Of a stretch of 64,000 bases of DNA, positions 48,162-60,007 are shown piece after piece. Each line of letters opens with the position of its first letter. The first letter of the stretch is position 1. The stretch lies in the NCBI RefSeq assembly GCF_023703775.1, contig NZ_CP098514.1, positions 1,736,001-1,800,000 on the forward strand. Reading direction: 5' to 3'. A model generated the notes under the pieces. It saw nothing but the letters and a program-made list of their open reading frames with translations. It did not search any database and had not been told where the DNA came from. The stretch is from Haloplanus sp. GDY1. Its GTDB lineage: Archaea > Halobacteriota > Halobacteria > Halobacteriales > Haloferacaceae. A program made the position numbers and the translations under genes.

Positions 48162-49631
48162 GTGACCCCGGCGGCGTGGCGGCGACGCCTCCTCGCCGCC
48201 GCCGTCGCCCTCGCGGGCGGCGTCGCCGCCGTCGCCGGATCGTACGCCGTCGTCGGCGACGCCCCCGCCTTCGTCGCGGCGCCGATAGCGAACCTGACCG
48301 TCACGCTCGCGCCCGGCGTCCTCGTCACGTTCGCCATCACCGTCCTCGGCGACCTGGGGAGCAAACTGGCGTACGCGTCGGGGCTTGCGGTCACCGCGGC
48401 CCTCCTCGGCGTCGTCGTCGCGGCCGGCCGCCTGGCCGCGGCCCGGATCGACCGCCCGCTGCTCGCGCCCGCGGCCGTCGCCCTCGCCGTCGGCGCCGTC
48501 GCCGGCGTCCTCGCCGGCGCGCTCGACTCGGCGGTCGGCGCGGCGGTCGGCGCGGCGCTCGTCGCGACCGTCGCGGACCTCGGGGGCGACGCGGGCACCC
48601 CGACCGACGACGGTCGGCGCGCGCTCCTCTCGGGGGCGGCCGCCCTCGCCGTCGCCGCCCTCGGGGTCGGCGGCCGACGGGCGTTCGCACCCTCGGACCC
48701 GACCCCGACGACGCCGGTCCCCGACGACGTGGCGGCCCTCCTCGCGGAGGCGGAGGGGAAGTCGCTCGCAGTCGAGGGGCTGGAACCCCTCGTCAGCGAT
48801 CACTTCTACCGGGTGGACATCGCCAACGTCGACCCCGATCCCGCCCGCGAGGACTGGTCGCTGCGGATCCACGGCGCCGTCGGCGAGGAGACGACCTACA
48901 CCTTCGCGGACGTCGAGGCGATGGAACACGAACACCGGTTCGAGACGCTTCGCTGCGTCGGCGAGTCGCTCAACGGGCGCAAACTCGACACCGCCGTCTG
49001 GACGGGCGTCCCGCTGATGGGCCTGCTGGAGCCGGCCGACCTCCAGGGGGAGTACGTGATGCTCCGGGCGGCCGACGGCTACTACGAGGAGTTCCCGGTC
49101 GCGGCGCTCGAAACCGGCTTCCTCGCGGTGGGGATGAACGGACAACCGCTCCCCCGCGCCCACGGCGCGCCCGCCCGGGCGCTCATCCCGGGCCACTGGG
49201 GCGAGATCAACGTCAAGTGGCTCACCGAGATCGAGATTCTGGACGAACCGGCGACGGGCTACTGGGAGGAGCGCGGCTGGCACGGCACCGGCCCCGTGAA
49301 CACCGTCGCGAAGCTGTGGGCGACGAACCGCCTCGACGACGGCCGGATCGAAGTGGCCGGGCCGGCCTACGCCGGCACCCGGGGGATCGAGTCGGTCGAG
49401 GTGTCGACCGACGGCGGCGACACCTGGACCGAGGCCGACCTCTCCACCCCGCTCCCCGGCGAGGACGTGTGGCGCCAGTGGGTGTATCGCTACGAGGCCA
49501 CTGGCCCCCACGAGGTGGTCGTCCGTGCTATCGACGGCACCGGCACCCTCCAGCCCGAAGACGAGCGGCGGGCCTTCCCCAGCGGGCCGAGCGGGTGGGT
49601 CAGCCGGTCGGTCGACCCCGACGCGCTGTGA
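48162..49631 (+). CDS. Membrane-anchored sulfite-oxidase-family molybdoenzyme
   Basis: A protein of 489 residues from GTG 48162. Four hydrophobic helices occur in the first 170 residues, with low-complexity Ala/Gly/Val. A linker (DPTPTTPVP) leads to the SUOX molybdopterin domain (about 190-370) with the Mo-binding Cys265 in LRCVGESLNG, GVPLMGLLEP and PGHWGEINVKWL. A Mo-co dimerisation domain (about 385-480) follows. The catalytic domain has no Tat signal of its own, so its side of the membrane is unclear. The electron donor could be sulfite or another oxo-acceptor. It is a candidate partner of the reductase operon to its right. Confidence 0.85.
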   Translation: MTPAAWRRRLLAAAVALAGGVAAVAGSYAVVGDAPAFVAAPIANLTVTLAPGVLVTFAITVLGDLGSKLAYASGLAVTAALLGVVVAAGRLAAARIDRPLLAPAAVALAVGAVAGVLAGALDSAVGAAVGAALVATVADLGGDAGTPTDDGRRALLSGAAALAVAALGVGGRRAFAPSDPTPTTPVPDDVAALLAEAEGKSLAVEGLEPLVSDHFYRVDIANVDPDPAREDWSLRIHGAVGEETTYTFADVEAMEHEHRFETLRCVGESLNGRKLDTAVWTGVPLMGLLEPADLQGEYVMLRAADGYYEEFPVAALETGFLAVGMNGQPLPRAHGAPARALIPGHWGEINVKWLTEIEILDEPATGYWEERGWHGTGPVNTVAKLWATNRLDDGRIEVAGPAYAGTRGIESVEVSTDGGDTWTEADLSTPLPGEDVWRQWVYRYEATGPHEVVVRAIDGTGTLQPEDERRAFPSGPSGWVSRSVDPDAL

Positions 49632-50285: not shown

Positions 50286-50477
50286 ATGGCTCGTGACGCC
50301 CTCCTCACGACCGAGACGAAGGTGATCGTCCTGTTCATGGTTCTCGGGCTCACCGCCTGGTACCTGGTCCAGCAGGTCACGACGAACTCCGTCCTCGATT
50401 TCGTCGCGCTGATCGGTATCGGCGTCCTCGCCCCCACGCTCGTCAACGAGTGGCGGCGGCGACGCTCGGCGGACTAA
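50286..50477 (+). CDS. Short two-helix membrane protein
   Basis: A protein of 63 residues. Two hydrophobic helices (about 12-28 and 36-53) end in the basic tail NEWRRRRSAD. ATG 50286 is preceded by a purine-rich stretch and the upstream extension is Pro/Ser-rich leader. It overlaps the end of the reductase operon on the other strand by 4 bp. Family not recognised. Confidence 0.55.
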   Translation: MARDALLTTETKVIVLFMVLGLTAWYLVQQVTTNSVLDFVALIGIGVLAPTLVNEWRRRRSAD

Positions 50478-50911
50478 CCCGTTTCGAGCCGTTCGTACTC
50501 CTCGATGCGTTCGCCCGCCGCCAGCGCCACGGGTTCGAGCCGGCGCACTCGCTTGACCGTCCGCGCGCCGACGATCCGGGGTGCGACGAACCGCGGCCAC
50601 CCGCCGTCGCCCGCCCGCGCCGGGCCGTCGACCCGCGCCTCGGCGAGGACCCCGCCGACGGCGTCCGCGAGGGCGACGCAGGCGACGTGCTCGTCGGGGC
50701 CGTGGATCCGGAGGTGGGTGGCCGGACACCCCTCCGGCAGTCGGTCGAGCACCCACCCGACCGGGACGCCCCGCCACTCGCCGGTCCACCGGTCGCCGCT
50801 CGCACACCGGAAGGAGGCGCTCACGGCCGTCCGCGGCGCCGCCCCGAGGTCGACGGGACCGACGCCGTCGAGCGTCACGCGCCGGTCGGCGGCGGCCTCA
50901 CTCCCCGCCAC
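50474..50911 (-). CDS. Minimal sulfite-oxidase-type molybdopterin-binding domain protein
   Basis: A protein of 145 residues. FRCASGDRWTGEWRGVPVGWVL (near 34-55) aligns with the Mo-binding Cys motif of sulfite oxidases (LRC-x-GE...W-x-GVP), so Cys36 could bind molybdenum. The last part, PRFVAPRIVGARTVKRVRRLE, matches the end of that domain. The dimerisation domain and most of the substrate pocket are missing, making it about half the size of YedY-type proteins. It is the last gene of the type II reductase operon (14-bp overlap with the Mrp gene). A role in cofactor handling is possible. Confidence 0.65.
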   Translation of the reverse strand: MAGSEAAADRRVTLDGVGPVDLGAAPRTAVSASFRCASGDRWTGEWRGVPVGWVLDRLPEGCPATHLRIHGPDEHVACVALADAVGGVLAEARVDGPARAGDGGWPRFVAPRIVGARTVKRVRRLEPVALAAGERIEEYERLETG

Positions 50912-52217
50912 GGGCGGTCACCTCCCCGGCACCGGCACCGGCGTCGCTCTCGGCGGGCAGTTCGAGCAGCCACCGCTCGGGGCCGAGGCGGTCGATCACC
51001 CGGGGGTCGTCCCCGTCCGGGAGCGCCTCGCGGACCGCCGCCGGCGCCGTCGCGGTGACGAACCGCAGCGACTCGCCGGGGTCGAGCGCCGCCCGCTCGG
51101 CGCCGAGTTGCTCCCGGGCCGCCCGCGCGGGCACGCCCCGGAGGTCGAGCGCCTCCGGCGGGACGGGGTCGGTCGCCGTCGCCTCGCGGACGGCCCGCGC
51201 CAGTTCCGCCGCCCGGTCGCCGGCCGTCTCCGGGTCCGCGAGCGCCGGGTCGACCGGGAAGGAGTCGAGGACCGGCGCCGAGAACGCCTCGCCGACGTCG
51301 CTCGTCGGGAAGACGGCGTGTTCGGTCCCGCAGTCCGGACACGTCGCCGCGGTCATGTTGGGGACGACGCCGAGGACGGGGACGCCCTCCTCGCGGAACA
51401 GGCGTTCGCTGCGGACGGTGTCGCCGACGGCCGAGGGATCGGGCGTCGTCACGAGGACGGCCCCGGTGAGCGGGAGCGCCGACAGGCTCGTCAGCACCAC
51501 GTCGCCCGTCCCCGGCGGGAGGTCGACCACCAGCGTGTCGAGGTCGCCCCACGCCGTCTCGGCACAGAGGTCCGTCAGCGCCTCGTGGGCCATCGCCCCC
51601 CGCCACGCCACCGGGTCGTCGCCAGCGAGCAACCCGACGCTCATGGTCGCGATTCCGTCGGCGTCGACGGGCGCCGCGTCCCCGGCCTCCGTCGTCGTCA
51701 CGGGGCCGGAGACGCCGAGGCGCGCCGGCACGTTCGGCCCGTGGAGGTCGGCGTCGAACAGCCCCACCGACTCGCCCGCGGCGTCGAGCGCCCGGGCCAG
51801 CGCGACGGCCACCGTGGTCTTCCCGACGCCGCCCTTCGCGCTGGCGACGGCGACGACGCGGTCGACGTCCGGGAGCGGGACCGTCCCGTCGCCCCGTCCC
51901 GCGTCGTGACCCTGCGGCCGGCCGCTCGCGGGGCGCTCCCCGTCGTCAACGCGGACGCCCTCGACGCCCGGCACCGAGAGGACCGCCTCCCGGACGGACG
52001 CCTCGACCTCCTCGGCCGCCGGCGCGGGGAGTCCCGCGAACTCGACGGCGACCCGAACCTCGCCGTCGCGACACGACAGGCCGGTCACGAGCCCCGACTC
52101 CAGCACCCCGGCGCCGAGGTCCGGATCCTCGACGTCCGAGAGCGCCGCCTCGATCCGGTCGCGGAGCGAGGGGTCGTCGCCGTCCCCGTGCCCGCCACAG
52201 CCACACTCCTCGCGCAT
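50898..52217 (-). CDS. Mrp/NBP35-family Fe-S ATPase fused to DUF2249
   Basis: A protein of 439 residues. The N-terminal CGCGG and MIP18-like domain (about 16-90, SLRDRIEAALSDVEDPDL) are followed by a ParA/Mrp ATPase (about 120-345) with the deviant Walker A AKGGVGKTT (127-135) and a metal-binding CPDC near 294. The C-terminal DUF2249 domain (about 355-430, starting LDLRGVPARAAREQL) is unusual. Mrp proteins carry Fe-S clusters to target enzymes, so this one may load clusters on the reductase encoded upstream. That role is inferred from operon position. Confidence 0.82.
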   Translation of the reverse strand: MREECGCGGHGDGDDPSLRDRIEAALSDVEDPDLGAGVLESGLVTGLSCRDGEVRVAVEFAGLPAPAAEEVEASVREAVLSVPGVEGVRVDDGERPASGRPQGHDAGRGDGTVPLPDVDRVVAVASAKGGVGKTTVAVALARALDAAGESVGLFDADLHGPNVPARLGVSGPVTTTEAGDAAPVDADGIATMSVGLLAGDDPVAWRGAMAHEALTDLCAETAWGDLDTLVVDLPPGTGDVVLTSLSALPLTGAVLVTTPDPSAVGDTVRSERLFREEGVPVLGVVPNMTAATCPDCGTEHAVFPTSDVGEAFSAPVLDSFPVDPALADPETAGDRAAELARAVREATATDPVPPEALDLRGVPARAAREQLGAERAALDPGESLRFVTATAPAAVREALPDGDDPRVIDRLGPERWLLELPAESDAGAGAGEVTARGGE

Positions 52218-52218
52218 C

Positions 52219-52824
52219 TCACCACACCTCCCCCTCGGGGACGCCGCCGTCGTCCTCGTCCACCAGGGTCCCGCCGTAGGGCCGGAAGTCGACGTCGTAG
52301 GCCCCGTCGACGGCCTCGAGGGCGTCCTCGCGCTCGGCGATGGTGTCGGTGTCGAAGCCGACGGCTTCGAGCGCACCGACCAGGTCCGACTCGTCGAGGC
52401 GGCCGGCCGCGAACCCGTCGGCGACCCCGTCGCGGATGCGGTCGGCGTTGCGCCGGCACCGCTTCGCGTCCGCGAACCGCTCGCGGGCCTCGCCCGACAG
52501 GTCCGCCCGGTCCAGCGGGACGGCCGCCAGTCGCTCGACCGCGCGCTCGTCGTACTCGGCCGCCATCTCCAGCAGTTCGGCCGCCTGCTCGCGGGCCGAG
52601 AGCGCCGCCCACGCCTCGCGGGCGTCGTCCGCGACGACGCTCTCGACCACCTCGGCCCAGTCGGTGTCCCGCTCCGCGTCCTCGAACGCCTCGGCGACGA
52701 ACGCCGCGACGTGGTCGTCGGGGACGGCGACGCCGAGGGACTCCCGCGCGCCGTCGCCGTCCGCGTCGCCGCCGTTCTCGCCGCCCGATCCGCCGGTCGC
52801 GTCGAGTTCGTACTCCTCGGTCAT
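52219..52824 (-). CDS. Acidic helical protein of the reductase operon
   Basis: A protein of 201 residues, very acidic and mainly helical, with a flexible first 30 residues and no Cys cluster or membrane helix. Its ATG overlaps the HEAT-gene stop by 4 bp and the Mrp gene follows after 1 bp, so it is part of the operon. It might be a chaperone or assembly factor. I do not recognise the family, and a function is only guessed from context. Confidence 0.6.
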   Translation of the reverse strand: MTEEYELDATGGSGGENGGDADGDGARESLGVAVPDDHVAAFVAEAFEDAERDTDWAEVVESVVADDAREAWAALSAREQAAELLEMAAEYDERAVERLAAVPLDRADLSGEARERFADAKRCRRNADRIRDGVADGFAAGRLDESDLVGALEAVGFDTDTIAEREDALEAVDGAYDVDFRPYGGTLVDEDDGGVPEGEVW

Positions 52825-53675
52825 GGTCTGTCACTCCGCGGTGATCGGTCGACCGCACGGGGCGTGCTCCCCGTCTCGAACTGCGGGCCCTCGCCGTCGC
52901 CCCCGCCGGGCGGCGCCGGCGACGGAACCTCCACGTCCACCGCGTCGGGGTCGCGACCCCGTGCGTCGGCGATGGCCCGCTTCGCCGCCCGCTGGACGTC
53001 GCTGGATCGGTCGTCGATTCCCTGGGTCTCCAGCGCCTCGACGGCGCGGTCGGTGCCGAGGCGGCCGAGGCTCGTCGCCGCGTTCGCCCGCACCAGCGCC
53101 TCGGGGTCCCGCGCCAGCACCGCCGCGAGCACCGTCACCGTCTCCGCGACGGTCCCGGGGGTGTGACCCAGGAACTCCGCGGCGTACTCCCGGACCGAGG
53201 CGTGGCCGTCGGTCTTCAGGCACTCGCGGAGCAGGTCCGCGTCGGCCGCCCCGAGCTTGCCGAGCGCGACCAGCGCGTTCCGCCGGACGAACCCGCTCGG
53301 GTCGTCGAGGCGGTTCCGGAGCGGGTCGGTCGCCGCCTCGCCCTCGGCCCGCGAGAGCGCGACGACCGCCTCCGCGCGCACCCACTCGTCGTCGTCGCCG
53401 GTCGCCGCCCGGAGCCGTTCCGGCGCGGCGCCGGCGTTGCCGAGCGCCTCGACCGCGAACTGCCGCACGTCGGCGTCGGGGTCGTCCCCGACGCGGGCGG
53501 CGAGGGCGTCGACCGTCGCGGCGTCGAGGCCGTCCGTCGCGGCGTCGACGAGACCCAGCGCCGCCTCGCGCCGCGCCGCCGCGTCGTCGGCGTCGAGGCG
53601 GTCACGCAGCGCCGCCTCGTCGGCCGCCGGCGCCCGCCCCCGCGCGCTCCAGTTGGCGTGTGGGTCGTCGGTCAT
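52821..53675 (-). CDS. HEAT-repeat protein of the reductase operon
   Basis: A protein of 284 residues with about six tandem PBS-lyase-type HEAT repeats (about residues 20-235), each with a phrase like DDEWVRAEAVVALSRA or DPSGFVRRNALVALGKLG. The C-terminus is Pro/Gly/Asp-rich. Such solenoids bind proteins. Its position between the gamma subunit and the Mrp ATPase suggests that it holds assembly intermediates of the molybdoenzyme. It overlaps both neighbours by 4 bp. Confidence 0.82.
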   Translation of the reverse strand: MTDDPHANWSARGRAPAADEAALRDRLDADDAAARREAALGLVDAATDGLDAATVDALAARVGDDPDADVRQFAVEALGNAGAAPERLRAATGDDDEWVRAEAVVALSRAEGEAATDPLRNRLDDPSGFVRRNALVALGKLGAADADLLRECLKTDGHASVREYAAEFLGHTPGTVAETVTVLAAVLARDPEALVRANAATSLGRLGTDRAVEALETQGIDDRSSDVQRAAKRAIADARGRDPDAVDVEVPSPAPPGGGDGEGPQFETGSTPRAVDRSPRSDRP

Positions 53676-54715
53676 CCGTCCCTCCTGATGCTCCGGTAGG
53701 CGAAGGCCCACGCGACGACGGTGGCGACGAGGACCGCCAGCAGGCCGTCGCGGAACTGTTCGGAGATGAAGGGCGCGTCTCCCGAGGTGGCCGCGTCGCC
53801 GCCCGTCGAGGCGGCGGTGGCGCCACCGCCACCGCTCGCACCGCCGCCACCGCCGGAGCCGCCGCCCGCGGCCGCGAGTTCGCCGGACGACGGATCGAGC
53901 GTGCTGAACTGGAGCGTGATGGACTTCTGACCGTTCACCTCGTCCGCGCTCCCGTTCCAGACCGCGAAGGCGAGATACACCTGCTCGCCGTTCAGGCTCG
54001 CGTCGTACTGGCCGTCCGTCGAGCGCTCGCGGACGAACACCACCTCCCAGCCGTCGGCCGTGCGCGTGGCGTCCGCCCGGACGTTCTGGGCGGGGGCGTG
54101 GCTCAGGGAGCCGTACCCCTTGGCGTAGTAGTTCTGTGCGAGGCGGTCGTACTCCCGCTTCGAGAGGGGATTGCCCGCGGCGGCACCGGGTTTCGTCGTC
54201 TCGTTCGGGTGGGGGTAGGCGTACATGTCGCCGGTCCAGTCGGCGGTGCCGTCGCGGGGCCCGTACTCCCAGCTCGCCCGCCAGTACCAGATGTCGACGG
54301 GCGTGCCGGCGGCGCCCATCGTGATGGGGGGTTGCGAGCCGGTGCGGAGCATGACGGCGGCGGCGTCGGCGTAGGACCGCGGCGCCGCGATGCTCGTGTC
54401 GTTCGTCGGGTCGGTCCACGAGAGCTTGATGGCGACGTGGCTCTCGTTGCCCATCGCCCGAACCGTCAGTTCGTCGACGCTCCCGCCGCCGAAGGGGAGC
54501 GCCATCCGCTGTCTGCTGAGCTGGACCGTCCGGCTCGGCGCCTCGGACCACGCCGGCGCCGTCGCCTGCCGGGGCACCGTGTCGGCCACCGCCATCGGCT
54601 GCTGGCCGCTCGTCGCCACGGCCGCGACGCCCACCTGCGCCGTCGAGACGCCGAGGGCGACGACGAGGGCGACGACCGTCGCACGGGCCGCCGCCCGCCG
54701 GTCGAGAGCGATCAC
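53672..54715 (-). CDS. Ethylbenzene-dehydrogenase gamma-like heme subunit with membrane anchor
   Basis: A protein of 347 residues. A Sec-type signal (about 12-34) is followed by an EB_dh domain (about 45-280), the fold that binds heme b in EbdC, DdhC, ClrC and SerC, with AIKLSWTDPTND and VWNGSADEVNGQKSITLQF. A Gly/Ala/Ser-rich linker (about 285-318) precedes a C-terminal helix (about 324-342) ending YRSIRRDG. EB_dh subunits of bacteria are soluble. Here the added anchor could hold the complex on the outer face of the membrane. Met and Lys heme ligands are not assigned with certainty. Confidence 0.8.
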   Translation of the reverse strand: MIALDRRAAARATVVALVVALGVSTAQVGVAAVATSGQQPMAVADTVPRQATAPAWSEAPSRTVQLSRQRMALPFGGGSVDELTVRAMGNESHVAIKLSWTDPTNDTSIAAPRSYADAAAVMLRTGSQPPITMGAAGTPVDIWYWRASWEYGPRDGTADWTGDMYAYPHPNETTKPGAAAGNPLSKREYDRLAQNYYAKGYGSLSHAPAQNVRADATRTADGWEVVFVRERSTDGQYDASLNGEQVYLAFAVWNGSADEVNGQKSITLQFSTLDPSSGELAAAGGGSGGGGGASGGGGATAASTGGDAATSGDAPFISEQFRDGLLAVLVATVVAWAFAYRSIRRDG

Positions 54716-55575
54716 GGCGCCTCACCCCCCTCGTCGTCCGGGACCGCCAGCCCCGGCGGGTGGGCCTCGACGTCCGTCTCGACCAGCGCCTCCGCGAGGT
54801 CGACCGTCGCGCGGTAGGCGGTCGCCGCGGGGCCGAGGGCGTCGTCGTCCGCGCCGCCCCCGTGGCGGTCGGCCAGCGCCGCCCGCACCTCCGCGGCGAA
54901 GGCCGGCACGAAGCTCCGGAGGTGCTGAGAGAGGAGCGTCGCCTCCGCCTCCCGGAGCGTCGACGCCTCGTCGTCCAGGTCGGCGTCGGCGGCGACCGCC
55001 CGCCGCCCCGCCAACACCTGCATCAGTTCGAGTTCGAGCGCCACGTGGTCGTGGCGCTCGTCGAACCCGTCGGACAGGTCGAGGCCGAAGGCGTCGAGCA
55101 GGCCGGAGACGGTCGCCACGCGCCGCTGCTTGTGGCTCACCTCGTCGCCGACGGTGTACTCGGCCTCGTAGGGGACGACCGGGTAGCCGTCGCCGTCGGG
55201 CACGCCGAACAGGTCGTCGTACACCCGCCTGAGCCCCTCGGCGTCGACGGCCGCGAACGCGTCGACGAACCCCTCGACCTCGTCGTCGAGGCCGTCGAGC
55301 GTCTCGGCCGCCCCCCGCAGGCCGTCCGCCGTCTCGTCGGCCGTCAGTTCGGCGACGGCGACGTCGTCGGGGTAGCCGAGCGCGCCCGCGAGGGCGGCGT
55401 ACACCGCCGCTCGGGCCGCGTGGCGGGTCGGGTCGCCGTCCGTTCCCGAGGACCGTCGCTCCTCGCCGTCCGTTCCCGAGGACCGTCGCTCCTCGCCGTC
55501 CGTTCCCGAGGACCGTCGCTCCTCGCCGCCCGCTGCCTCGTCCGCGTCGTGGTGGTCTGACATGGGTCTGCTCAT
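54712..55575 (-). CDS. TorD/DmsD-family molybdoenzyme chaperone with N-terminal tandem repeat
   Basis: A protein of 287 residues from ATG 55575, chosen for its ATGA overlap with the Fe-S subunit gene. ATG 55563 is an alternative. The helical TorD domain (about 50-270) includes YTVGDEVSHKQRRVATVSGLL and ERHDHVALELELMQVLA. Such chaperones bind the Tat signal of the catalytic subunit and hold it until the cofactor is inserted. Residues 16-45 are three copies of a 10-residue unit, [GD]GEERRSSGT, from a 30-bp DNA repeat. Confidence 0.82.
   Translation of the reverse strand: MSRPMSDHHDADEAAGGEERRSSGTDGEERRSSGTDGEERRSSGTDGDPTRHAARAAVYAALAGALGYPDDVAVAELTADETADGLRGAAETLDGLDDEVEGFVDAFAAVDAEGLRRVYDDLFGVPDGDGYPVVPYEAEYTVGDEVSHKQRRVATVSGLLDAFGLDLSDGFDERHDHVALELELMQVLAGRRAVAADADLDDEASTLREAEATLLSQHLRSFVPAFAAEVRAALADRHGGGADDDALGPAATAYRATVDLAEALVETDVEAHPPGLAVPDDEGGEAP
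55441..55530. repeat. Three tandem 30-bp repeats inside the TorD-like gene
   Basis: The 30-bp unit CGTTCCCGAGGACCGTCGCT plus CCTCGCCGTC occurs three times in a row (55441-55470, 55471-55500, 55501-55530). Only the last copy differs, by one base near its end. The unit is a multiple of three, so copy number can change without breaking the frame. Confidence 0.95.
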
Positions 55576-56753
55576 GGCTGGTTGGTCCACAGTTCGCCCT
55601 CGCGCACCTCCATCTCCTCCTGGAAGGGCACGTCGACCACCTTCTTCCCGCGGCGGTCGTACCCCTTCACCCGGGTCTCCTTGACCGTGTACGTCTCGAT
55701 GAGCCGGGTGGTCGCGCCGAACAACTGGAGGATGCCGAGGACGTGGTGGCTCGGGTTTCGCACCCGATCCTGTACGATCTCGATGCTCTCGCGGTAACTC
55801 CCTCCGGGCCAGTCGTTGCGCTTTTGCGCCGTGTTCGGGGTGAACATCTGCGTCAGGAAGTCGGGCGGGACGTGGTAGGGAGGCATGTAGAACACCTGCG
55901 GCCGGGTGCCGAACTGGGGGTACAGCGGCAGCGCCACCTTCTCGTCGGAGTGGACGAGGTAGTTGATCGGCGACCGGCCGCCCGGCGCCGAGTTCGACCC
56001 GCCCGGTGGGCCGGCGTCCGGCCCGCGGTTGATGTTGCCGTGCAGCCGCGTCTTCCCGATGCAGGAGGAGACACACCGCGGGACGTTCCCCTCCTCGATC
56101 CGGGGGTAACAGCCGACCGGCTTCTCGGTCACCCCCGTCTCGGGGTTGTACATCGGCTTGTGGTACGGACAGGCCTTCACGCACTTGCGGTAGCCGCGAC
56201 ACCGCTCCTGATCGAGGAGGACGATGCCGTCCTCCTCGCGCTTGTAGATGGCCTGACGCGGGCAGGCGGCGAGGCAGGCCGCGTTCTTGCAGTGGTTGCA
56301 GAGCCGGGGCAGGTAGAACTGCCACATGTCGTGGTACTCGCCCTCCTCGAGGTCCGACTCGACCACGTCGCCCGCGGGGTACTCGCCGTGGGCCATGTCG
56401 TCGCCGAGCGCGGGGTACTCCCACTCCTCCTCGCGGGCGACGTAGCCGTGGACGCGTTCGCCCTGCTCCGCGGCCTCGAACACCGTCTGCTCGCCGTCCA
56501 GGTCGTCGAGCAGGCGCATGTCCCACCCCATCGGGTAGCCGCCGTACGGCTCCGTCTCGACGTTCATCCACCACATGTACTCCTCGCCCTTCCCGCTGGT
56601 CCAGGTGGACTTGCAGGCAAACGAGCAGGTGTTGCAGTTGATACACCGGTTCACGTTGACGATCATCCCCCAGTGCCAGTCCCGCTCCTCCTCGCGGTGT
56701 TCGTAGGGGTAGTCGTGCTCGCGGCCGAGCTGTGGGTTGTAGACCTGTGGCAT
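55572..56753 (-). CDS. NarH-like Fe-S electron-transfer subunit with one missing cluster ligand
   Basis: A protein of 393 residues, the beta subunit of a type II DMSO-reductase-family complex. Cluster motifs are C-x2-C-x2-C-x3-C (37-47), CNHCKNAACLAACP, CRGYRKCVKACP (Tyr at the place of the Trp that makes FS4 a [3Fe-4S] in NarH), and CYPRIEEGNVPRCVSSC (215-231). NarH has EKCIFC before CYPRI; here it reads EKPVGC, so Pro212 replaces one FS2 Cys. No Tat signal is present, so it should be exported together with the catalytic subunit. It overlaps the upstream stop as TGATG. Confidence 0.88.
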   Translation of the reverse strand: MPQVYNPQLGREHDYPYEHREEERDWHWGMIVNVNRCINCNTCSFACKSTWTSGKGEEYMWWMNVETEPYGGYPMGWDMRLLDDLDGEQTVFEAAEQGERVHGYVAREEEWEYPALGDDMAHGEYPAGDVVESDLEEGEYHDMWQFYLPRLCNHCKNAACLAACPRQAIYKREEDGIVLLDQERCRGYRKCVKACPYHKPMYNPETGVTEKPVGCYPRIEEGNVPRCVSSCIGKTRLHGNINRGPDAGPPGGSNSAPGGRSPINYLVHSDEKVALPLYPQFGTRPQVFYMPPYHVPPDFLTQMFTPNTAQKRNDWPGGSYRESIEIVQDRVRNPSHHVLGILQLFGATTRLIETYTVKETRVKGYDRRGKKVVDVPFQEEMEVREGELWTNQP

Positions 56754-59700
56754 CAGTCGTCACCTCCGCGCAGGGGGTTGTACCGGCTGCTCGTCGTCCC
56801 GTTCGTGGCCGTGTCGTCGCCGCCATCGCTCGACCCGTCGGACTGCAGCGACCCGTTCACGTACCCCTGGAACAGGTCGTCCTTCCGGGCGTCGCCGGGC
56901 CACCAGTCCGCCTCCGCGTACTTCTCGACCTCCACGAGGTCGTCGCGGTTCGTCCCCGTCGGCGCCCACACCGTCTCCTCGTAGCCCGCTTCGAGGGTCG
57001 CGCCGTGCCAGGCGATCTCCTCCTCGATCTCCTCGGAGATGTTGGGGTCGCCGAACACCCCCTTGTGAACCAGGTCGTCGGTCTCCTGTGCGGGGTCGAG
57101 CCAGATGTTCGTCGTCACGTTGTACCCCTTGATGCCGTCCTCGTTCTCCTCGTCGTCGGCGAAATGTTGGGGCCACCAGCCGTGCCAGATGGTCAACTGG
57201 CCCATGTCGCCGGCCGAGCGGGGGCGCTGGCGGTCGCTGACCATCACCCGCACCACGAGGTCGCCGCGCTTGCCGGTGATGCGGACGTAGTCGCCGTTCT
57301 CGACGTCGATGTCGGCGGCGTCCTCGGGGTGCATCTCGACGAACGCCTCGCCCAGCGGCGGGGCGTCGTTGGTCTCGCCCTCGCCCGTCGGGAACGAGAA
57401 GTCCTCGACGAGGCGGTCGGTGCCGTCCGGGTCCGCCGAGGTGGAGCCGAAGTCCCGCGCCGACCAGATCAGGTTCCAGTCCGTCATCCCCCACGAGGAG
57501 TGGGTGCGGTACTTCGGATGCGGGGTGTTGTAGTAGAACTGGTAGCCCTGGTCGTGATACAGCGGGTTCTCCTCGTCTTTGGCCTCGTCCCACTTCTCGT
57601 TCACCCCGTAGGGCGTCCCCTCCGGACTCTCGATGTGGTCCAGGTCGTCGCGGCCGAGTTCGAGGAACCGGTCCTCCTCCTTGTGGAACTCCATCCGGCC
57701 GGTCTTGGTGTAGAACGGCCGATCCTCGTGGATCTGCGAGTAGAAGGGGATCCGGGGGTAGGTCTTGAGTTGTAAGCGGACCGGCCCGTCCTCCAGATCC
57801 GGGACGTCGATGTCGCGGGTGGTCATGCCCGCGTCGAGCGTCTCCTGGATGTAGTTGCGCACGTCGCCGTCGTCGTCGAGGAACTCCGCGAAGTAGGAGC
57901 GATAGGAGTCGACGGTGCGCTCCTCGGGCGGGATCTTCTCGTCGAGTTTCTCGGCGACGAGCGCACAGATTTCGCCGTCCTGCTTGGTGTCGTAGATGGG
58001 ATCCATCACCCCGCTGTCCATCTGGAGGAAGGGGTTCTCCGGGCCGACCGTGATGTCGGGGTACTCACACTCGAGCCACGAGGGAACCGGGAGGACGATG
58101 TCGGCGTGTCGGGCCGAGTAGGTCATGTGCATGTCCGACACGATAAGCAGTTCGTTGCCCGTGTCGGGGTGTTTGACGAAGTTCTCGACGACGTGCTCCT
58201 GGTGTTTGGTCTGGTTCAGGAGGTTGCAGTTCATCGTCCACAGGATCGCCGGCCGCGACATGGTGTAGGAGTCGGCGTTCTCCGGCAGCACCGGCTCGGC
58301 GGCGTCGCCCTGGGGCACCAGATCCAGGTCGCCGTCGAAGTCCCCGCGGATCGAGTGGGGGTCGAGTTGCTCGCCGCCGAAGAAGGCGAAGGCGTAGCCG
58401 GGGTACATCCCGTGGGCGCTGTGGCCGTCGGGGTTGACGTACGTCGGGTAACCGTCCAGGAGTTCGATCTTGTACTGGCCGGAGTAGTTGTAGTAGCCCG
58501 CGCCGCGCTTGCCGACGTTGCCGAGCATCGACTGGACGAAGAAGATGGTGCGCTGGAGCGAGTCGTTGGAGTGGAACCAGTGGTTGATCCCCTCGCCGGT
58601 GAACCACTGGCCCTTCTCCGCGGCGGCGAACTCGCGGGCGGTCTCACGGAGCTTCTCCGCCGGGATGGTCGTGATGTCCTCGACCGTCTCCGGGTCGTAG
58701 CGCTCCACGATGTTCGCCTTCTGTCGGGCGAAGTCGGTGTGGACGGCGACGCTCGTGCCGTCCGCGAGGCTCACCTCGCGGTCGACCTCCAGTTGCGCGT
58801 CGGCCGGCGTCTCCGACCCCACCTCCTCGCGGGTGACGGGGACGAGTTCCCCGTCGCCGTCGACGGCGACGAAGTCGCCCCAGTCGTCGCCGCCGCCGTG
58901 GTGGGCCAGCCCCGCCTCGCCCTCCGTGCCGCCCTCGGGCGGTTCGTGCTCCGGGAACACCTCGTGAGCGCGGAGGTACTTCCCGGTGTCCTGCCGGATC
59001 AGGAGGGGCAAGCTGGTGAACTGCCGCATGAACTCCGGATCGTACAGCTCCTCCCGGATGATGACGTGGGCGACGCCGAGCGCGAAGGCGGGGTCGCTCC
59101 CCGGGCGGATGGGGAGCCACCGGTCACACTTCTGGACGGTCGGCGAGTAGTCGGGGTAGACGCCGACCATCTCGCCGCCGCGCTCGCGGGTCTCCTGGAG
59201 CCAGTGGTTGTCCGCGAGCTTGTTGTGGATCAGGTTCTTCCCCTGCATGATGGTGTAGTCGGCGGCGCGCCACGCCGAGGCGTCGGCGTCGCTGGTCTGG
59301 TAGCCCGTGGTGATGACGTGCCCCGGCGGCAGGTCGGCGTACCAGTCGTACTCCGTCCACTCGCAACCGCCGAAGATCGAGGCCAGCCGCCGGCCGGCGC
59401 CGTGACGCGTGATCAGGCCGTCGGCCTTGATGGCGTTGAAGACGTGGAACCGTTTTTCGTCCTCCAGATTCGCCATCTTCTCGGCGATGAGGTCGATGGC
59501 CTCGTCCCACGAGACCCGCTCGAACTCGTCTTCACCCCTCCCTTCGGGGCTGGGGTCCTCGGGGTCCCAGCCCTTCCGGACCATCGGGTACTTGATCCGC
59601 GAGGGCTCGAAGGTGCGGCGATGCAGGGTCAGCCCCTTCATGCAGCCCCGCGGGTTCCAGTGGCGGCTGACGCCCGCCTCCTCGTACCCGCCGGGGCTGC

Positions 59701-60007
59701 CCGGCCCGGGACTCCCCTCCTCCTCGTGGTAGATCTGTTCGGCCCGGATCGGCACCCCGTTTTTCATGTAGAAGTTGAGCGCACACGACTGGGTGCAGTT
59801 CGGGTGACAGACCGTCCAGTCCACCCGGTCGTACGCGTAGATGTCGTGGTACACCTGCTCCCAGTCGCGGTTGGGGTAGGACTTCAGCGGGTTGTCGACC
59901 GACGTCACGGGGTCGACGGACTGGGTCGCCCCCCACCCGCTCGTGAGCAGCGCACCCAGGGATCCCGCGCCGGCGGCCTTGATGAAGTCCCGCCGTCCGA
60001 GACTCAC
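56753..60007 (-). CDS. Type II DMSO-reductase-family molybdopterin catalytic subunit
   Basis: A 1084-residue Tat-exported enzyme. The signal is GRRDFIKAAGAGSLGALLT (4-22). FS0 ligands are Cys67, Cys71, Cys75 and Cys122. The Mo ligand is expected to be Asp221 in YDWYADLPPG, as in NarG. MGD-binding motifs (SPDYSPTVQ-like YPDYSPTVQKCDRWLP; GQLTIWHGWWP) follow. These place it with NarG, DdhA, EbdA, SerA and ClrA. It could reduce nitrate, chlorate, selenate or DMSO, or oxidise a sulfur compound; the sequence does not tell. It is the first gene of an eight-gene operon. Length is near the NarG range but shorter than its about 1250 residues. Confidence 0.9.
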   Translation of the reverse strand: MSLGRRDFIKAAGAGSLGALLTSGWGATQSVDPVTSVDNPLKSYPNRDWEQVYHDIYAYDRVDWTVCHPNCTQSCALNFYMKNGVPIRAEQIYHEEEGSPGPGSPGGYEEAGVSRHWNPRGCMKGLTLHRRTFEPSRIKYPMVRKGWDPEDPSPEGRGEDEFERVSWDEAIDLIAEKMANLEDEKRFHVFNAIKADGLITRHGAGRRLASIFGGCEWTEYDWYADLPPGHVITTGYQTSDADASAWRAADYTIMQGKNLIHNKLADNHWLQETRERGGEMVGVYPDYSPTVQKCDRWLPIRPGSDPAFALGVAHVIIREELYDPEFMRQFTSLPLLIRQDTGKYLRAHEVFPEHEPPEGGTEGEAGLAHHGGGDDWGDFVAVDGDGELVPVTREEVGSETPADAQLEVDREVSLADGTSVAVHTDFARQKANIVERYDPETVEDITTIPAEKLRETAREFAAAEKGQWFTGEGINHWFHSNDSLQRTIFFVQSMLGNVGKRGAGYYNYSGQYKIELLDGYPTYVNPDGHSAHGMYPGYAFAFFGGEQLDPHSIRGDFDGDLDLVPQGDAAEPVLPENADSYTMSRPAILWTMNCNLLNQTKHQEHVVENFVKHPDTGNELLIVSDMHMTYSARHADIVLPVPSWLECEYPDITVGPENPFLQMDSGVMDPIYDTKQDGEICALVAEKLDEKIPPEERTVDSYRSYFAEFLDDDGDVRNYIQETLDAGMTTRDIDVPDLEDGPVRLQLKTYPRIPFYSQIHEDRPFYTKTGRMEFHKEEDRFLELGRDDLDHIESPEGTPYGVNEKWDEAKDEENPLYHDQGYQFYYNTPHPKYRTHSSWGMTDWNLIWSARDFGSTSADPDGTDRLVEDFSFPTGEGETNDAPPLGEAFVEMHPEDAADIDVENGDYVRITGKRGDLVVRVMVSDRQRPRSAGDMGQLTIWHGWWPQHFADDEENEDGIKGYNVTTNIWLDPAQETDDLVHKGVFGDPNISEEIEEEIAWHGATLEAGYEETVWAPTGTNRDDLVEVEKYAEADWWPGDARKDDLFQGYVNGSLQSDGSSDGGDDTATNGTTSSRYNPLRGGDD

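Follow-up and report, generated by a model that had tools for sequence, protein, structure and literature searches.

The 64,000-nucleotide window of Haloplanus sp. GDY1 analyzed here (contig NZ_CP098514.1, positions 1,736,001 to 1,800,000) carries on its minus strand, at window positions 50474-60007, an eight-gene molybdoenzyme operon whose product we consider, with a probability of about two in three, to be a respiratory nitrate reductase that faces outward and belongs to a distinct lineage related to nitrite oxidoreductase (NXR). An earlier note, made from the sequence alone, had presented the operon as the best candidate in the window for an undescribed respiratory system, with an unusual assembly and anchoring kit. 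The first of these descriptions is fair for the enzyme, and no account of its clade was found in the published open-licence literature, but the likely substrate, nitrate, is nothing new; the enzyme, not the accessory kit, is the unusual part of the operon.

Comparison with solved structures points to the NXR of Kuenenia as the closest relative of all three structural subunits. The best-matching chains are NxrA (7b04_B, E 7e-130) for the catalytic alpha subunit (56753..60007, 1084 amino acids [aa]), with ~36% identity over the stretch aligned, NXR subunit B (7b04_A, E 1.5e-83) for the four-cluster Fe-S beta subunit (55572..56753, 393 aa), and NXR-C (7b04_C, E 2e-22) for the gamma subunit with its EB_dh haem-b domain (53672..54715). 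Kuenenia NXR ranks before PcrA, NarG and EbdA for each subunit wherever those match, with 438 bits against 260 for PcrA in the case of alpha. NCBIfam type II models also give matches (E 2.5e-125), all under their curated cut-offs, and the predicted Asp molybdenum ligand, an Fe-S beta subunit and a TorD-type chaperone are all present, assigning the enzyme to the type II dimethyl sulfoxide reductase family.

In a maximum-likelihood tree, the haloarchaeal orthologues of alpha branch deepest on the NXR side with a support of 100, and canonical haloarchaeal NarG, PcrA, ClrA, EbdA and E. coli NarG fall outside. The present clade and canonical haloarchaeal NarG form separate clades, each with support 100, and an approximately unbiased (AU) test rejects a joint clade of the two (log-likelihood [lnL] difference 167, p ~1e-140), as it does the joining of the clade with another NXR-like haloarchaeal group. 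The AU tests used a different row set, with the two longest rows removed, and clade and canonical NarG still stood apart. The trees were 'quick' ones with long outgroup branches, making the exact root position less certain than the separation of NarG from the clade, and Kuenenia alone represents verified NXR among the NxrA references. The earlier note had proposed a tree of catalytic subunits as the test of its claim to novelty, and the protein falls outside the characterized haloarchaeal clades.

The active site shares features with NXR. Asp225 of alpha aligns with the molybdenum-ligand Asp275 of NXR and with the corresponding Asp of PcrA, and is invariant in both alignments checked; the substrate Asn is conserved as well. 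The gamma subunit presents Met133 and Lys264 as predicted haem ligands, both invariant in a 15-row alignment. Likeness to NXR of the Kuenenia/Nitrospira type extends to the active-site Asn and Asp and to the haem-b gamma with Met and Lys ligands, whereas the membrane tail of the haloarchaeal gamma and the haloarchaeal accessory kit set the two apart.

The predicted ligands of the FS0 cluster differ. Every full-length clade orthologue read carries CHPNCTQSC in the catalytic subunit (residues 67-75 of the window copy, including Asn70), in contrast to the H[SG][VI]NCTGSC of canonical haloarchaeal NarG (His in 7/7) and to the 3Cys/1Asp FS0 of NXR, in place of which the clade has CxxNCxxxC with a Cys at the Asp71 position. 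The cysteines of this motif and the downstream Cys122 provide four candidate FS0 ligands, where NarG has 3Cys/1His; geometry and ligands are read from the alignment only, the AlphaFold model of alpha (predicted local distance difference test [pLDDT] 43) having been left aside. In the paper on the NXR structure, FS0 has one of two ligand sets, 3Cys/1Asp or 3Cys/1His, and the clade would add a third natural ligand pattern where His or Asp has been called the rule (PMC8387239).

The Cys/Cys pattern is also found in Chloroflexota, in Poribacteria and in one Nitrospirota metagenome-assembled genome (MAG). The Cys-type alpha subunits of the Chloroflexota and Poribacteria MAGs (loci L107-L119) resemble the clade in their CxPNCTHxC motif and in the gene order alpha-beta-TorD-gamma, at 29-33% identity in the best segment, and a profile search found no HEAT, acidic or mini-SUOX proteins beside them. 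Separately, a third haloarchaeal NarG-like group (L073, L075-L078, L131, L151), largely from Natrialbaceae and with alphas of ~1200 aa, carries C[TR]PNDTHNC, the NXR-type Asp pattern, and is nested among bacterial Asp-type enzymes near that of Thiomargarita. Its loci encode TorD and often Mrp, with no EB_dh gamma found by profile search. PMC8301774 reports two haloarchaeal NarG proteins that depart from the His motif, and these may belong to this group.

Counting the window genome, orthologues at 77-90% identity occur in 35 of 391 haloarchaeal genomes, including members of Halobaculum, Natrinema, Natrialba, Haloarcula, Halorussus, Halosimplex and Halostella, among others. The next-best matches outside the clade reach at most 37% identity, leaving a clean gap without intermediates. 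The genes from alpha to Mrp are kept in nearly all loci read far enough; in a few loci Mrp is displaced or was not seen, and mini-SUOX is optional. Two catalytic genes, those of N. pallidum (L104) and of genome G091 (L072), are split by frameshifts, through either decay or sequencing error. Within the genus of the window, the operon is present in one of the eight genomes sampled, namely the window genome, pointing to either a recent horizontal acquisition or repeated loss.

Nitrate is proposed as the substrate from linkage to nirK and norZ, from co-occurrence with nirK, from the exclusion of other enzymes and from host phenotype. In Halobaculum sp. CBA1158 the operon runs directly into norZ and nirK, and in H. 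magnesiiphilum and H. roseum it is accompanied by norZ, nirK, halocyanin and a formate/nitrite transporter. A nirK gene lies within 15 kb of the operon in 8 of the 35 clade genomes, and is also near it in Halorussus. By count, 30/35 clade genomes have nirK, against 179/356 of the remaining genomes (Fisher p 5e-5, with no correction for kinship). At the threshold used, no further NarG-like gene was found in about half of the clade hosts. Anaerobic growth on nitrate with production of N2 has been reported for Natrinema altunense AJ2 (PMC5333441), and both N. altunense and N. versiforme have been listed as nitrate respirers without NarG (PMC8400030). We did not find canonical NarG in the genomes of N. 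altunense AJ2 or N. versiforme; both carry the operon, and the clade enzyme is the only NarG/NXR-type enzyme found in them. Their other PF00384 enzymes are NasA and a DmsA-like enzyme in AJ2, and NasA and two formate dehydrogenases in N. versiforme. The conserved molybdenum-ligand Asp, substrate Asn and gamma haem Met and Lys further count for a nitrate reductase, as does the closeness of alpha, beta and gamma to Kuenenia NXR, which also reduces nitrate (PMC8387239). Taken together, these data make the clade enzyme the probable nitrate reductase of several archaea that respire nitrate but lack the usual enzyme.

Several observations weigh against a nitrate reductase, an activity that for clade members is a prediction. 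The clade has a Cys at FS0, and a passage of PMC8301774 cites a His-to-Cys change at this cluster as inactivating E. coli NarG. The window genome already possesses a canonical nar operon, which would render a second nitrate reductase redundant or differently used. The AJ2 assembly is a draft, with 3.77 Mb against a stated 4.4 Mb, leaving room for an unassembled NarG. A search of N. versiforme for nirK at E 1e-80 gave no match. A literature search turned up no usable record of Halobaculum nitrate phenotypes.

The best-surviving alternative, though an improbable one, is that its main substrate is another oxyanion (chlorate, perchlorate or selenate) or an N- or S-oxide, nitrate being reduced only on the side if at all. 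Such substrates fall within the range of type II enzymes as a whole, and many host genomes already encode canonical NarG. PcrA, ClrA and EbdA resemble the clade enzyme in their type II fold and, by homology, in an Asp-ligated molybdenum, and ClrABC and EbdABC also in a haem-b gamma subunit and a TorD-type chaperone. All three, however, have His at FS0 and fall well outside the clade, and PcrA scores far below NXR as a solved relative. Furthermore, the neighboring genes are nir and nor genes, and chlorite dismutase is not annotated in the three Halobaculum regions read, with no profile search made elsewhere.

Slightly less likely still is that the enzyme operates mainly as a nitrite oxidoreductase, oxidizing nitrite outside the cell and passing electrons through the gamma haem b and a blue copper protein to an oxidase. 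The nearest solved homologues of alpha, beta and gamma and the branching of the clade on the NXR side would fit this direction, as would the separate nitrate reductase held by many hosts and the halocyanin genes near several loci. However, the hosts whose physiology was looked up are heterotrophs, several with nirK and norZ beside the operon, the NXR-type 3Cys/1Asp FS0 is absent, and in Halobaculum and Natrinema the operon is the main nitrate-reductase candidate. No nitrite-oxidizing haloarchaeon was found in our searches of open-licence papers. We regard it as very doubtful that heterotrophic haloarchaea use the enzyme as an NXR in vivo under oxic conditions; were this true, Archaea would gain their first known case of nitrite oxidation.

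The accessory genes relate the proposed nitrate reductase to the canonical haloarchaeal nar operons. Those of Haloferax larsenii, Halarchaeum and Halomicrobium encode Rieske, cytochrome b, NarG, NarH, EB_dh, TorD, HEAT and Mrp proteins, and a mini-SUOX gene, present in some members of either group, adjoins the canonical Haloferax operon. At ~533-544 kb of the same contig, the window genome likewise has a nar operon of the canonical type, Rieske and cytochrome b genes included. The window operon is thus the standard haloarchaeal nar kit minus the Rieske, cytochrome b and other membrane genes, plus an acidic protein; the EB_dh subunit with tail helix, TorD, HEAT, Mrp and mini-SUOX that the earlier note took for unusual are standard in these operons. 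Likeness to canonical pNar (NarGH, Haloferax type) encompasses a Tat-exported alpha, a beta and a membrane-tailed EB_dh gamma (Orf7; canonical gammas likewise combine a signal with a C-terminal membrane helix), with TorD, HEAT, Mrp and mini-SUOX in the same operon. In contrast, canonical pNar has NarA, the Rieske protein NarB, the cytochrome b NarC and a hydrophobic protein of unassigned function, which the clade operon does not; NarB and NarC are absent from every clade operon read.

A diverged copy of canonical NarGH that lost narBC would explain the shared accessory kit (EB_dh, TorD, HEAT, Mrp, mini-SUOX), but we deem this highly improbable given the 33-36% identity of canonical NarG to the clade alpha with no intermediates, the AU rejection, the HxxNCTGSC motif that differs from the clade's without exception, and the canonical order alpha-beta-gamma-TorD, as opposed to the alpha-beta-TorD-gamma that the clade shares with its Chloroflexota relatives. 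The enzyme is best filed as one that by context works like pNar and yet falls outside both canonical pNar and NXR as these are defined. In Halosimplex salinum (L089) and H. pelagicum (L105), the clade operon has immediately upstream a divergently oriented canonical nar operon with genes for narA, Rieske, cytochrome b and NarG, whose quinol module the two systems may share.

The eight genes proposed in the earlier note were all recovered, with Pfam matches in agreement. GC-rich DNA gives rise to many spurious open reading frames, and the operon genes are backed by orthologues in the same order in ~30 other genomes. Read from the sequence, their ends touch or overlap: alpha and beta overlap by 1 bp, four 4-bp ATGA/GTGA overlaps join beta/TorD, TorD/gamma, gamma/HEAT and HEAT/acidic, a 1-bp gap separates acidic from Mrp, and Mrp and mini-SUOX overlap by 14 bp. 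Alpha (Molybdopterin and Molydop_binding) has a twin-arginine translocation (Tat) signal, RRDFIK, beta (Fer4_11) has no signal peptide that we could see, and gamma (EB_dh) has an N-terminal hydrophobic signal and a C-terminal membrane helix. The TorD/NarJ-type assembly chaperone (54712..55575, 287 aa) matches Nitrate_red_del (PF02613) and, under cut-off, TIGR03482. It is followed by a HEAT_2 protein (52821..53675, 284 aa) with homologues in canonical nar operons, by the acidic protein (52219..52824, 201 aa), by an Mrp/NUBPL Fe-S carrier ATPase (50898..52217; ParA/NUBPL and FeS_assembly_P) with a C-terminal DUF2249 that is weak in the window copy and strong in two orthologues scanned, and by the mini-SUOX protein (50474..50911, 145 aa; Oxidored_molyb).

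The acidic protein, confined to clade operons, has no Pfam match and no assigned family. AlphaFold predicts a confident all-helical core (pLDDT 75 overall, >85 across most of the core) whose fold has no match in the PDB. A relationship to TorD is not detectable, and the similarly placed gene of canonical nar operons appears instead, by its hydrophobic sequence, to encode a membrane protein.

The operon contains no gene for NarI, NrfD or cytochrome b, and the earlier note was correct that it lacks a quinol-oxidizing cytochrome and does not by itself account for the electron route. NarC-family cytochrome b is present in Halobaculum and in the window genome, and was found in none of 10 operon-bearing Natrinema and Natrialba genomes, so that another route must exist in the latter. 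NrfD-type genes occur in these Natrinema and Natrialba genomes, with none in Halobaculum or the window genome. An alternative complex III in Natrinema is weakened as a candidate, the two NrfD genes of the one genome inspected being far apart, one of them beside ferredoxin and Mrp genes. Blue copper proteins were matched in all 16 genomes tested (6 to 15 per genome), and a mobile carrier between the available quinol dehydrogenase and the gamma haem b would be the simplest common denominator.

We envisage that alpha and beta would fold in the cytoplasm with TorD, while Mrp, HEAT, the acidic protein and, where present, mini-SUOX may help maturation. The folded pair would leave through Tat on the signal of alpha and dock onto a separately exported gamma, which would carry haem b and be anchored in the membrane through its tail helix. 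As the operon offers no quinol-oxidizing partner, the donor would most likely be a mobile extracytoplasmic carrier (a halocyanin-type blue copper protein) or the quinol dehydrogenase of the host. Electrons would pass from the gamma haem b through clusters FS4-FS1 to FS0, and nitrate would be reduced to nitrite outside the cell at an Asp-ligated molybdenum-bis(molybdopterin guanine dinucleotide), the nitrite then passing to NirK and NorZ. What the analysis established is the gene content, phylogeny, motifs, export and anchor signals, linkage and the lack of alternatives; the substrate, the direction, the donor and the accessory roles are inferred.

Other genes flank the operon in some genomes. 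In the window, a sulfite-oxidase-like protein of the SUOX type that begins with a multi-helix membrane domain (48162-49631, plus strand) is convergent with the operon and is not kept beside it in orthologous loci. Two Halobaculum loci (L005, L006, at 8-11 kb) have directly upstream a radical S-adenosylmethionine/ribosomally synthesized and post-translationally modified peptide cassette (TIGR04053, TIGR04347, Htur_1727 family), halocyanin and MoaD/ThiS, and parts of this cassette are seen again in Halostella and Natrinema.

According to PMC8400030, several haloarchaea respire nitrate without a NarG found in their genomes, and for Natrinema altunense and N. versiforme the operon is the clear candidate. 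If the clade enzyme is a nitrate reductase, more haloarchaea can start denitrification than are counted by gene surveys keyed to NarG, which miss its hosts.

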